In this document: in pieces, positions 60,426 to 64,000 of the stretch | Numbering within the stretch: the stretch's first letter is position 1 | Layout of the letters: every line of letters begins with the position of its first letter | Origin: Acidobacteriota bacterium | Lineage (GTDB): Bacteria > Zixibacteria > MSB-5A5 > GN15 > FEB-12 | Length of the DNA: 64,000 nucleotides | Direction of reading: 5' to 3' | Assembly: GCA_035529075.1 (NCBI GenBank) | Contig: DATKXK010000014.1 | Coordinates: forward strand, 202,264-266,263 | The notes under the pieces: model-generated | Told to the model about the DNA's origin: nothing | Database searches by the model: none | The model's input: the letters and a program-made list of their open reading frames with translations, nothing else | Made by a program: the position numbers and the translations under genes

Positions 60426-61640
60426 ATGGATTTCCTGAAGCTGGGCGTAATCTTCATTGCCATCGTCATCGCGCTCAGGAAGAAGCTTTCGGTGGGTGTG
60501 ACCCTTTTTGCCGCCGGTCTCTTAACTGCTCTTCTCTTCCGGGTTACGTTAGCCGCGCTTGTTGACGGCTACTGGGGGCTTGTCTCGTCGCAACGCTTTC
60601 TGGCCCTGACCTCGGTGATAATCCTGATCACCATCCTGGGGTCGCTCCTTAAGGAACTCGGCTGGCTGCAGAAGCTCTCCGAAGCGTGCCGGTCGCTTCG
60701 CGGCGGTCGGCGGACCGCCACCGCGGTGATGCCGCCGCTGATCGGTTTGATGCCCATGCCCGGCGGTTCGCTCCTTTCGGCTCCGTTGGTGGACAGTGTC
60801 CTGTCGGACGCGGAACATTCCCCCCACCTCAAGTGTGCCACCAACTACTGGTTTCGGCACATCGTGGAACACTTCATGCCTATATATCCCGGCATGATCC
60901 TCAGCGAGGCGATTACCGGCATGCCGGTTTCACGCCTGGCGATGATGCAGTCACCGCTCGCGCTTGCCATGGCGACCATTGGCGTTGTATTCTTCATCCG
61001 CAGGATCCGTAAGGACTCCGGCGGCCCGGGCGAATTCAGACGGCCAATTATCAGCATCATTCAGACCGTCTGGCCGATCCTTACGGCGATACTCTTGTAC
61101 GGCGTCGTACGTCTGAACCTGTCGCTGGCCGTCCTGGTGTCGCTCCTGCTGCTGATGGCGGTGGCCCGGCCGAAAAGAAACCTCATCGTCCAGTCGGTCA
61201 GGAGCGGTCTGTCCTACAAGCTCATCTTTCTGGTTTTCGGTATCCTCTCCTTCCAGACCGTGCTGGACAGTTCCGGCGCCATCCTGTCGCTGCAACGTCT
61301 GTCCGTCGACTACCATTTCCCCGAGCAGGTGATTATCATCATCGTCTGTTTCACGGCCGGCCTTCTGACCGGCATGTTTTCCGCCTTCGTGGCCATCGGG
61401 TACTCGCTGCTGGCCGGTTTTCTCTACCAGCCGGTGATCAACCCGGCTAACATCTTTCTGGCCTACCTGTCCGGATACTTGGGCATGATGCTGTCGCCGG
61501 CCCACTTGTGCCTGATCGTCACCAACAGCTACTTCAGGAGCGATTTGCTGGCTGTCTATAAGTTGCTGGTCGGCCCGGCCGCTGTTCTCGGTCTGGCCGG
61601 CTATCTCCTTTACCTGTCAGGCTGGCCGGCCCTTTTCTAA
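60426..61640 (+). CDS. DUF401 family integral membrane protein
   Basis: A 404-residue polytopic protein with about ten helices. The block AVMPPLIGLMPMPGGSLLSAP near residue 100 is the DUF401 signature, and HIVEHFMPIYPG follows. The two halves show permease-like symmetry (LIFLVFGILSFQTVLDSSGA, FVAIGYSLLAGF), related to Na+/H+ or gluconate-type transporters; no substrate is known. There is no Shine-Dalgarno sequence before the ATG; a promoter ends six bases upstream, suggesting a leaderless message. Confidence 0.88.
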   Translation: MDFLKLGVIFIAIVIALRKKLSVGVTLFAAGLLTALLFRVTLAALVDGYWGLVSSQRFLALTSVIILITILGSLLKELGWLQKLSEACRSLRGGRRTATAVMPPLIGLMPMPGGSLLSAPLVDSVLSDAEHSPHLKCATNYWFRHIVEHFMPIYPGMILSEAITGMPVSRLAMMQSPLALAMATIGVVFFIRRIRKDSGGPGEFRRPIISIIQTVWPILTAILLYGVVRLNLSLAVLVSLLLLMAVARPKRNLIVQSVRSGLSYKLIFLVFGILSFQTVLDSSGAILSLQRLSVDYHFPEQVIIIIVCFTAGLLTGMFSAFVAIGYSLLAGFLYQPVINPANIFLAYLSGYLGMMLSPAHLCLIVTNSYFRSDLLAVYKLLVGPAAVLGLAGYLLYLSGWPALF

Positions 61641-61812
61641 AGGCAATCAGGTCGTCTCCCGATGATACCGGTGACGGATTCGGATCAGCTTTGAGCAAAA
61701 ATCTTAACTTATTGTCGTACAAGGCAGTATATTGGCATGGCCGAGGAATTGGTTGGGAACTTTTGAAGCTCTTCCCGGTACCATAGTTAGAACTACTTGC
61801 AACGGGTGGCAA

Positions 61813-62415
61813 ATGTCAAAGCCGACCGAAAAAGAGATCGACTACAAGCTGATGAGGGCCATTCAGAAGGGCGACATGGTGGCCTTCAACGAGATGGTCA
61901 ACCGGTACAAGAACCGGCTGATGAACGTCATTGGCCGGATGCTGTCGTCGGCTGAGGAGGCCGAGGACATTGTGCAGGAGACGTTTATACGGGTATACCA
62001 GCACCGGCAATCGTTTAATTTTCAGCACTGCCTGTCGACCTGGATATACACGATCGGCCTGAATCTCGCCCGGAATGAGCTGCGCAAGAGACGGAAATTC
62101 AAGTTTTACGACATATCCGAGATGCAGGGGAATGAGACGGAGTTCGCCGTCGAGGCGAAGATTCCGAGTCGTTTGCCGGAGGTGCTCTCCGCAGCCGTGA
62201 AATCGCTGCCCGAGAAGTACCGGACGGCGTTCCTGCTTCGGGATATAGAAGAACAGCCATATGAAGAAGTCGCCAGGATCCTTGACGTACCCCTCGGGAC
62301 CGTAAAGTCCCGCGTCAACCGGGCGCGACTCATGCTGCGTGATAAACTGCGGCCGAAACTGGAGGAATATAATGCGTTGTCGAAAGGTACGCTCCTTCCT
62401 GTCAGCTTACTGTAA
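61813..62415 (+). CDS. ECF-type (sigma-E-like) RNA polymerase sigma factor
   Basis: A group 4 sigma factor of 200 residues, using ATG 61813. Region 2 covers about residues 14-80 (AFNEMVNRYKNRLMNVIGRM, AEDIVQETFIRVYQH) and region 4 about 125-180 (SLPEKYRTAFLLRDIEEQPY, GTVKSRVNRARLMLRDKL). It overlaps the anti-sigma gene by 44 bases. An upstream TATATT (61727-61732) with TTAACT may mark the promoter. The gap 61641-61812 holds nothing else visible. Confidence 0.95.
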   Translation: MSKPTEKEIDYKLMRAIQKGDMVAFNEMVNRYKNRLMNVIGRMLSSAEEAEDIVQETFIRVYQHRQSFNFQHCLSTWIYTIGLNLARNELRKRRKFKFYDISEMQGNETEFAVEAKIPSRLPEVLSAAVKSLPEKYRTAFLLRDIEEQPYEEVARILDVPLGTVKSRVNRARLMLRDKLRPKLEEYNALSKGTLLPVSLL

Positions 62416-63067
62416 CGATGAGCTTACTGGTCGGAAGCGGCTGGCTGTTCGCGAGCATCTTTCGACCTGCTGCGACTGCCGAAGGGAAGAGGCCTTTTAC
62501 CGGTCGATGAGGGCAGCCGCCGGCGAGTTGGCGGGGCTATCCGTGTCCTCGGACTTCAACACGCAACTGCTCAACCGCATCGCGCGGGAGCGGTTCGGGG
62601 AAACGCGTACGCGAGCCTACGTGCCCCGTCGGGCGCCGGTAGTGCGCTGGTCGCGAACGGTTCCCGTGCTGGCCATCGTGCCTGTCCTGGTGCTGGCCGC
62701 GGCCTACTGGCTTGCGGGTGGCTTGACGACCGGGCCGGTCGAGGTCGGCCCGTCGCCGTACGTTGTCGGCGATGACTACCTGACTGTTCAGCCCGCAAAC
62801 AACCCCAACCTGACCGGGGCGTTGAAGAAGGACTGGTCGCTTGACAAACAACTCAGGTGGACTGACCGCATGGCCAGAATATCCAACTCGATCACCGAGC
62901 GTACCGGCTTCGGTAATCTCCACCTAGCCGGCAGTCTCGGCGACCGCGCCGGCGACCTGGGGCCGGGCATCCCGTACGTCACGACGTACTACCGCGTGCA
63001 GCCGATCATTCGAGTATACCAGTCGTCCCACCGGACGAGCGTACAGGAGGATGAAGAAGTCTACTAA
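62372..63067 (+). CDS. membrane anti-sigma factor with zinc finger (ZAS)
   Basis: The partner of the sigma factor just upstream. ATG 62372 has GGAGG six bases before it, inside the sigma gene. The 231 residues begin with a zinc-binding anti-sigma motif: Cys14, then HLSTCCDC (HxxxCxxC) near residues 29-36. One membrane helix (about 98-118, VPVLAIVPVLVLAAAYWLAG) is followed by a periplasmic domain of about 110 residues (GPSPYVVGDDYLTVQPANN, YVTTYYRVQPIIRVYQ). Its release from the sigma factor may be redox-sensitive through the zinc site or depend on regulated proteolysis; this is inference. Confidence 0.92.
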   Translation: MRCRKVRSFLSAYCNDELTGRKRLAVREHLSTCCDCRREEAFYRSMRAAAGELAGLSVSSDFNTQLLNRIARERFGETRTRAYVPRRAPVVRWSRTVPVLAIVPVLVLAAAYWLAGGLTTGPVEVGPSPYVVGDDYLTVQPANNPNLTGALKKDWSLDKQLRWTDRMARISNSITERTGFGNLHLAGSLGDRAGDLGPGIPYVTTYYRVQPIIRVYQSSHRTSVQEDEEVY

Positions 63068-63068
63068 A

Positions 63069-64000
63069 ATGGTAACGTCATTCCTGGTGACCGTCAGGAA
63101 GAGCACCGCGGTGCTGCTGCTGGCGGTCTTTTTTTCTCCGGCCGCTCGGGCGGTCGACAGTTCCCTGTATTCCCTGGAGACCGGTCTGGGCGAGTTGATA
63201 TACTCGCTTTCTCGGTCTTTGGTGACGGTGGAGTCGTTCAGCCGGGTTTCAGTCGGAGGCCCCGGCGCGCCCCATCACGAGGTGCTGCGAAACCTCATTG
63301 CTTCCGGTCTGATTGTGGATACGGCGGGACATATCCTGGTGGCTGCTGAAACGGTGCTGGGGCAGGACCGCGTGCTGGTGAAGTTTGAGAACAATCGGAC
63401 GCCGGCCCGGCTGGTCGCCGTAGACTACCACAATATGCTGGCCCTGCTCGAGACCGGCCGGCGTCTCGGTGAACCGCTCGTCTATTCCGACGGCCACGGC
63501 TGCGCCGGGCAGGTGGTGCTGGCCATGGGTAATGCTTACGGTTTACGGGTATCGCCGACGCTCGGGATCTGCGCCGGGGCACGCGCCAACGGCGATCTGC
63601 AATTCTCAATTCCCATGACGTCCGGTGCCGTCGGCGGCGGTGTATTCGATCTCTCCGGTCGCCTTCTGGGCGTGATCACCGGCAGTCTTGGTGACCAGGG
63701 CCGGATCGTGCTCGCCGTGCCGGCCTACAGGGTCGAGCCGGTCGTTCAGTACCTGCTGACACGTGGCGACCGCTATCCCGGATTCGCCGGCATCCGGACG
63801 CGAGAAATAGAAATAGACCCGCCGATCAGAACCGAGCTTCCCCGTTCGCCCCTCGACGGCGGCGGGCAGACCGAGTTGTCCCTCGATGCCGGCATGGTGG
63901 TCACCGCCGTGCTGCCATTCTCCCCGGCGGAGCAGGCCGGGCTTCGCAAGGGTGATCTCATCTTCGCTCTCGGTGACCGGCGTATCCGCACCGGTGGCGA
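63069..64000 (+). CDS. HtrA/DegP-like protein lacking the catalytic triad (partial)
   Basis: Runs off the window; 310 residues are visible from ATG 63069 (an in-frame ATG at 63051 directly follows AGGAGG but with no spacer). A signal peptide ends near residue 28 (SPAARA). The trypsin-like double barrel aligns with HtrA by eye: LIVDTAGHILVAAETVLG corresponds to the block with the catalytic His, which is Glu94 here; VDYHNMLALLETG to the Asp block, Met123 here; and SGAVGGGVFDLSGRLLGVI to GNSGGPL, with Val188 in place of Ser. A PDZ domain begins about residue 274 (AGMVVTAVLPFSPAEQAGLR). It follows the anti-sigma gene by one base, as DegP-type proteins often accompany sigma-E. A pseudoprotease that senses or holds misfolded envelope proteins is the simplest reading. 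Confidence 0.85.
   Translation, partial: MVTSFLVTVRKSTAVLLLAVFFSPAARAVDSSLYSLETGLGELIYSLSRSLVTVESFSRVSVGGPGAPHHEVLRNLIASGLIVDTAGHILVAAETVLGQDRVLVKFENNRTPARLVAVDYHNMLALLETGRRLGEPLVYSDGHGCAGQVVLAMGNAYGLRVSPTLGICAGARANGDLQFSIPMTSGAVGGGVFDLSGRLLGVITGSLGDQGRIVLAVPAYRVEPVVQYLLTRGDRYPGFAGIRTREIEIDPPIRTELPRSPLDGGGQTELSLDAGMVVTAVLPFSPAEQAGLRKGDLIFALGDRRIRTGG

Follow-up and report, generated by a model that had tools for sequence, protein, structure and literature searches.

A catalytically dead HtrA as the putative partner of the anti-sigma factor encoded in its own operon

The window, the whole stretch of 64,000 nucleotides, carries near its end a gene for an HtrA-like protein whose three catalytic residues are all replaced, directly behind the genes of an ECF sigma factor and of a membrane anti-sigma factor. 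As far as the sequences tell, loss of the triad and gene order are conserved together in at least three bacterial phyla. We propose that this dead HtrA grips the C-terminal tail of the anti-sigma factor, caps and shields it, and that unfolded outer-membrane proteins compete with this tail; on balance we hold the whole reading to be probable. With respect to the preliminary description of the gene, several observations are new: the loss runs through the whole order to which the window belongs, three phyla show it again, an intact triad is found in one family (f10), two lineages have deleted the gene, and the anti-sigma factor has a Tyr or Phe tail.

The pseudo-HtrA gene occupies positions 63069..64000 of the window and, as judged from the ORF, the flanking genome sequence and Pfam, would end at 64250; it lies on the + strand, like the promoter-like element, the sigma gene, the anti-sigma gene and the domains and codons given below. 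Its full product, read from the flanking sequence (L004), comprises 393 residues from the ATG at 63069, or 399 residues from a second in-frame ATG located upstream, at 63051. We favour the start at 63069 because its Met is nearly invariant in an alignment of 44 pseudo-HtrA orthologues. The stop codon of the anti-sigma gene ends at 63067, so that the pseudo-HtrA gene begins one base after it, just as the preliminary description had it. Pfam recognizes a Trypsin_2 (chymotrypsin-like) domain at 63300..63674 (residues 84-208 counted from 63051; 36.7 bits for a cut-off of 27.6) and then a PDZ domain, the matched part of which starts at 63882 and is cut off by the end of the window at 64000 (PDZ_2, residues 278-341; PDZ_6, residues 283-326, 40.9 bits). 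A G-Y-x-G stretch is conserved ahead of this PDZ match, at residues about 244-250, where the alignment places the beginning of PDZ1 of DegQ. The protein thus displays the chymotrypsin-like domain followed by a PDZ domain that defines an HtrA, and its fold matches in the PDB are DegS, DegP and DegQ. It scores far below every cut-off of the DegS, DegP and HtrA equivalog models, and with 70.1 bits for a cut-off of 422.95 in TIGR02038 it does not belong to the DegS equivalog. Trypsin and PDZ are its only Pfam families and its structure matches HtrA, with no RseB fold in the window protein. The signal peptide that had been noted earlier is probably kept, as suggested by a hydrophobic stretch followed by an A-x-A-like site, and by a helix predicted at the N-terminus. 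Behind the PDZ domain, a C-terminal helix of about 30 residues is predicted and conserved (about 373-402 in the L085 orthologue; 3' end of the gene in L004); it follows the pattern D-S-L...L-K...L-E and could possibly form a coiled coil for oligomerization.

In our alignments, a GAA codon (Glu, 63348..63350) stands at the place of the catalytic His, an ATG codon (Met, 63435..63437) at that of the Asp and a GTC codon (Val, 63630..63632) at that of the Ser. Glu100, Met129 and Val194, which are counted from 63051 and correspond to residues 94, 123 and 188 counted from 63069, fall on the His, Asp and Ser of the two other PF13365 HtrAs of the same genome, both of which are intact. The preliminary description had read these three replacements as Glu94, Met123 and Val188 and had called for a structure-based alignment; a profile of the family aligned with PDB sequences of the DegQ/DegP type leads to the same columns as the alignment with the paralogues. 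A shifted alignment restoring a triad is thus ruled out by the agreement of two alignments and the PDB profile, and none of the alignments made recovered a His-Asp-Ser triad in the window protein.

A search for homologues had also been suggested. Across the order of the window (47 loci, corresponding to families f1-f3 and one f4), triad loss and operon order are kept together, with no sign of random decay. The His is retained in 0/47 orthologues, the Asp in 5/47 and the Ser in 0/47, the Ser column being mostly occupied by Ile, Val or Leu. For those close pairs that allowed its calculation, dN/dS is about 0.07-0.22, and because this is far below 1 we conclude that the pseudo-HtrA is under purifying selection and is not decaying; with the order-wide conserved loss, this rules out a single copy in random decay. 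In addition, nearly all genomes of the window's family keep the gene. It is true that some relatives in other families keep the Ser, but in the face of these data a protease that is cryptic or altered, or a decaying copy, seems to us very improbable. As for the HtrAs encoded outside the operon, all 21 found in the sampled Zixiibacteriota genomes keep His-Asp-Ser, and in the tree a 99% branch splits the operon HtrAs, f10 included, from these intact paralogues. The loss of the triad thus appears to belong to the operon-bound lineage and not to the HtrAs of these organisms generally.

AlphaFold models were obtained for the window piece and for a full-length orthologue (mean pLDDT about 78, from an alignment of 8 sequences). 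The best PDB matches of the orthologue model are DegS structures, including several complexes of DegS with peptides, some of the YQF type. With Trypsin_2 and PDZ above their Pfam cut-offs and a predicted fold closest to DegS, the earlier statement that the HtrA fold and the PDZ domain are kept appears to hold. A parallel can indeed be drawn with DegS and AlgW, which share with the window protein the HtrA fold, a single PDZ domain and a single N-terminal hydrophobic segment, here linked to an ECF sigma factor and a membrane anti-sigma factor. The window protein differs from them by the missing triad, by the location of its gene inside the sigma operon, by the extra predicted C-terminal helix and by its presumed PDZ ligand, which would include the C-terminus of the anti-sigma factor itself. 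Unlike DegS, it would presumably cleave no anti-sigma factor. A DegS-like fold thus goes together with conserved triad loss and conserved operon order, and a role in the control of the anti-sigma factor without proteolysis at this step is likely, as proposed in the preliminary description. The protein may also sense envelope stress, as was likewise proposed there, and it could act like RseB rather than like DegS.

The sigma factor of the operon is of the RpoE/SigW-like ECF type (61813..62415; Pfam Sigma70_r2 and Sigma70_r4_2) and about 76-84% identical to most orthologues of its family. The anti-sigma gene (62372..63067) was delimited with Pfam (zf-HC2, 30.9 bits) and an alignment of 28 orthologues. 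Its product has a zf-HC2 zinc finger (about 62378-62482), a single hydrophobic segment (about 62660-62713, topology read from the sequence) and, behind this segment, about 115 residues that are presumably periplasmic. Zinc finger, single hydrophobic segment, C-terminal part and adjacent ECF sigma gene are those of a zf-HC2 membrane anti-sigma factor similar to RseA or RsiW, with the topology as predicted. Upstream of the sigma gene lies a promoter-like element, GGAACTT-N15-GTA (61756..61780). Most of the roughly 60 orthologous loci compared across the phylum carry a GGAAC-N17-GTA element at about -46 to -75 relative to the sigma gene, and this conservation suggests that the sigma factor drives its own operon; the window element is probably the sigma factor's own, autoregulated ECF promoter. 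A scan of the genome for the regulon with this promoter motif showed no enrichment (6 hits versus 6 in the reversed control). Directly upstream of the sigma gene, and at the same spot in many orthologous loci, is a gene for a DUF401 membrane protein (60426-61640; PF04165, 180.8 bits).

Downstream of the pseudo-HtrA gene follow a carboxymuconolactone-decarboxylase-like (CMD) gene, tamB, an Omp85/POTRA gene (TamA/BamA-like) and a gene for a NifS-like cysteine desulfurase. The CMD-like gene lies beyond the window (L004:6559-7227) and stands between the pseudo-HtrA gene and tamB in most loci; a connection of its product with envelope assembly is not apparent. Phe is the last residue of the operon's Omp85 protein in 31/31 cases, the copy of this genome ending in ...ILYAF. 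M50 proteases and intact HtrAs are also encoded in the same genome.

The sigma/anti-sigma/HtrA operon is general across Zixiibacteriota, the phylum in which this genome falls and from which 132 genomes were sampled, and its order is largely kept in the 47 loci of the window's order. Outside this order, the triad places of the operon HtrA read S-N-S in f12-f14, mostly x-G-S in f15-f17, L-D-S in f18, mostly R-D-S in f19 and S-G-A in f9. In f7 (L195, L196) the operon HtrA is enlarged, with 665-712 residues. The gene has been deleted from the operon in most of f4 and in f5 (L184-L194); sigma and anti-sigma genes are kept there, as are CMD, tamB and Omp85 where the contig reaches. In f10 (L168, L169, L171), nested among broken relatives, the operon HtrA has an intact H-D-S. 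One could think of a paralogue swapped into the operon, but the test rejects a tree in which f10 groups with the paralogues (p-AU 0.022). The fewest triad changes on the HtrA tree number 2. The f10 triad may have been retained or regained; the return of three residues would be biologically improbable, and the triad may have been lost several times independently. At the least, f10 indicates that in one family or more the operon partner may be a protease. Together with the capping by the PDZ domain proposed above, we would tentatively see the intact, half-lost, fully dead and deleted states as a natural series that survives in one phylum, with a confidence somewhat less than even.

The same layout is found in other phyla. 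In Calditrichota, taken as the phylum of locus L103 and sampled with 82 genomes, nearly all of the loci examined carry the three-gene set. In the aligned operon HtrAs of this phylum, the His is kept in 0, the Asp in 2 and the Ser in 6; the window protein is counted once in these tallies, and the end of the locus truncates a few of the HtrAs. Where the HtrA gene seemed to be missing, the sequences show it at all loci but L294 and L299; at these two loci the anti-sigma factor ends in Tyr, and a protein of another kind, of about 415 residues and GAF-like by eye, takes the place of the HtrA. In an order of Acidobacteriota (94 genomes, 87 with a match), the set consists of the sigma factor, a short protein of about 120-140 residues in the place of the anti-sigma factor, and the HtrA. 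No Pfam domain was found in the one short protein scanned. The operon HtrA has here Leu for the His and mostly Arg or Gln for the Asp, with the Ser kept in all of the 30 examined. At the Acidobacteriota loci (L110, L308, L311-L339), the HtrA has two PDZ domains and the short protein ends in Tyr.

The anti-sigma factor of the window ends in ...EEVY, the Tyr codon (TAC) and the stop lying at 63062..63067, and C-terminus counts lead us to propose this end as a PDZ ligand. In the alignment of orthologues the last residue is Tyr while the preceding ones vary. Across Zixiibacteriota, the anti-sigma factor ends in Tyr or Phe in 65/69 operons with an HtrA versus 3/11 without. The exceptions among the former are three f2 anti-sigma factors ending in Pro and one from f1 ending in Ser; a Tyr end without linked HtrA is seen in three anti-sigma factors of f4/f5, in addition to L294 and L299. 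After deletion of the HtrA, the C-termini in f4/f5 are mixed (R, Q, N, Y). All 68 anti-sigma factors counted in Calditrichota end in Phe or Tyr, with Val at -2 in 40 and V-x-F as the commonest form, and in the Acidobacteriota order the protein in the anti-sigma place ends in Tyr in 29/29. In seven related sigma operons of other lineages, none of them with an HtrA gene linked to it, the C-terminal residues are D, K, D, Q, K, D and P. Among the genes that follow other ECF sigma factors, 1/52 has an aromatic end (L110), and it is the only one then followed by an HtrA; zinc-type anti-sigma factors of this control set have such an end in 0/16. A pooled Fisher test on Zixiibacteriota and the other lineages gives p = 7e-11, a value that ignores kinship. 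A test on the sigma tree, which has little power, yields three independent pairs on well-supported branches; on average 2.4/3 go in the expected direction, and practically never in the opposite one. The hypothesis was formed on data from f1 of Zixiibacteriota; the fairer test comes from what was inspected later, namely the f4/f5 losses, the loci of other phyla, Calditrichota, the control set and Acidobacteriota.

Could the terminal Tyr be a by-product of the ribosome-binding site or the start codon of the next gene? This is ruled out by the exchange of Tyr and Phe and by gaps of 174-216 nt; as the rule holds under both, the aromatic tail is a feature of the protein. A constraint of this kind may account in part for the conserved acidic and basic residues at -5 to -7, which we do not use as evidence. 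PDZ domains of HtrAs bind free aromatic C-termini, with positions 0 and -2 being decisive, as with YQF for DegS and WVF for AlgW (PMC8545111). The PDZ domain and its G-Y-x-G stretch are conserved here; the domain may bind aromatic C-termini as that of DegS does, its putative ligand being read from the anti-sigma C-termini only. The simplest reading would be that the anti-sigma tail is the built-in ligand of the HtrA PDZ domain. We regard the partnership of HtrA and anti-sigma factor as well supported; the binding and its direction we infer. One could also assume that the pseudo-HtrA is a periplasmic chaperone for outer-membrane proteins, controlled by the sigma factor, transcribed together with tamB and Omp85 and having no contact with the anti-sigma factor. 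HtrA proteins such as DegP do act as chaperones, and the gene sits with the envelope-assembly genes tamB and Omp85. Yet such a role would leave unexplained an anti-sigma tail that is aromatic with a linked HtrA and mostly non-aromatic otherwise, and we think it distinctly unlikely that it is the only one.

We come back to a direct contact. The periplasmic, non-proteolytic HtrA would be dedicated to the product of the preceding gene, the anti-sigma factor, whose free C-terminus the PDZ domain would most likely grip. The dead HtrA could cap the periplasmic part of the anti-sigma factor and shield it from site-1 cleavage, a task for which E. coli uses RseB, a protein of another fold. Unfolded outer-membrane proteins, which are also aromatic-ended like the Omp85 of the operon, would compete for the PDZ site. 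Once uncovered, the anti-sigma factor would be cut by an intact HtrA or another protease (site-1), next by an M50 protease (site-2), and the freed sigma factor may then activate the operon that encodes it, with tamB and the Omp85 gene. In f10, site-1 cleavage could be the work of the intact operon HtrA itself, bound to the tail; this would fit with a tethering that came first and a cutting activity lost later.

On the other hand, the dead HtrA could be an activating scaffold: bound to the anti-sigma tail, or joined with an intact HtrA in a mixed complex, it would recruit or activate the real site-1 protease and promote cleavage instead of blocking it. To illustrate this, the HtrA pseudoprotease MamO activates the intact HtrA MamE without catalysis (PMC4794232). 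The genome encodes intact HtrAs, the operon HtrA of f10 could cut its own anti-sigma factor, and the linkage between tail and HtrA fits a scaffold as well as it fits capping. The sequence results do not separate this scaffold, with its hypothetical mixed complex, from capping; we estimate the scaffold to be rather unlikely.

Capping would liken the dead HtrA, in its proposed role, to RseB and MucB, which are also non-proteolytic periplasmic partners encoded in a sigma operon and shielding the anti-sigma factor. The fold of RseB is unrelated to HtrA, and the contact would differ as well, going here through the PDZ domain and the anti-sigma C-terminus. The periplasmic part of RseA is bound by RseB, which must be removed before DegS can cleave (PMC8103513). 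With MamO, the window protein shares the descent from an HtrA, the loss of catalysis and a non-catalytic role; MamO differs by its function in magnetosome biomineralization, its metal-binding site, its C-terminal transporter domain and the lack of an anti-sigma partner (PMC4794232). Pfam found no such transporter domain in the window protein. HtrA genes also occur in other ECF sigma/anti-sigma operons, namely MucD in algU-mucABCD and the HtrA of the mycobacterial sigE-rseA-htrA. MucD and the mycobacterial HtrA keep the triad, and we know of no anti-sigma factor with a PDZ-ligand tail in either system.

Pseudoprotease HtrAs such as MamO and HtrAs in sigma operons were thus already known; what seems new is that both are joined, with a matching anti-sigma tail. 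In the open-licence literature we found no description of a dead HtrA as a conserved anti-sigma partner, none of an anti-sigma factor whose PDZ-ligand-like tail matches a linked HtrA, and no paper on Zixibacteria and HtrA. The furthest-reaching hypothesis would be that of a widespread, as yet undescribed envelope-stress control, conserved in three phyla, in which a former protease, HtrA, caps the anti-sigma factor through its PDZ domain. The tail of the anti-sigma factor would imitate the C-terminus of an outer-membrane protein and be displaced by real unfolded ones, with HtrA states running from intact to deleted. We put this forward tentatively, its chances being in our opinion slightly below even.

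Signalling by regulated proteolysis has its textbook example in the sigma-E pathway, where the sensing protease is an HtrA. Here, the operon retains across very large evolutionary distances an HtrA that has lost its active site. If our reading is true, it separates the sensing part of HtrA, the PDZ domain, from the cutting part, and shows how a protease becomes a regulator. The rule that associates an aromatic C-terminus of the anti-sigma factor with a linked HtrA could also guide the search for such pairs elsewhere.
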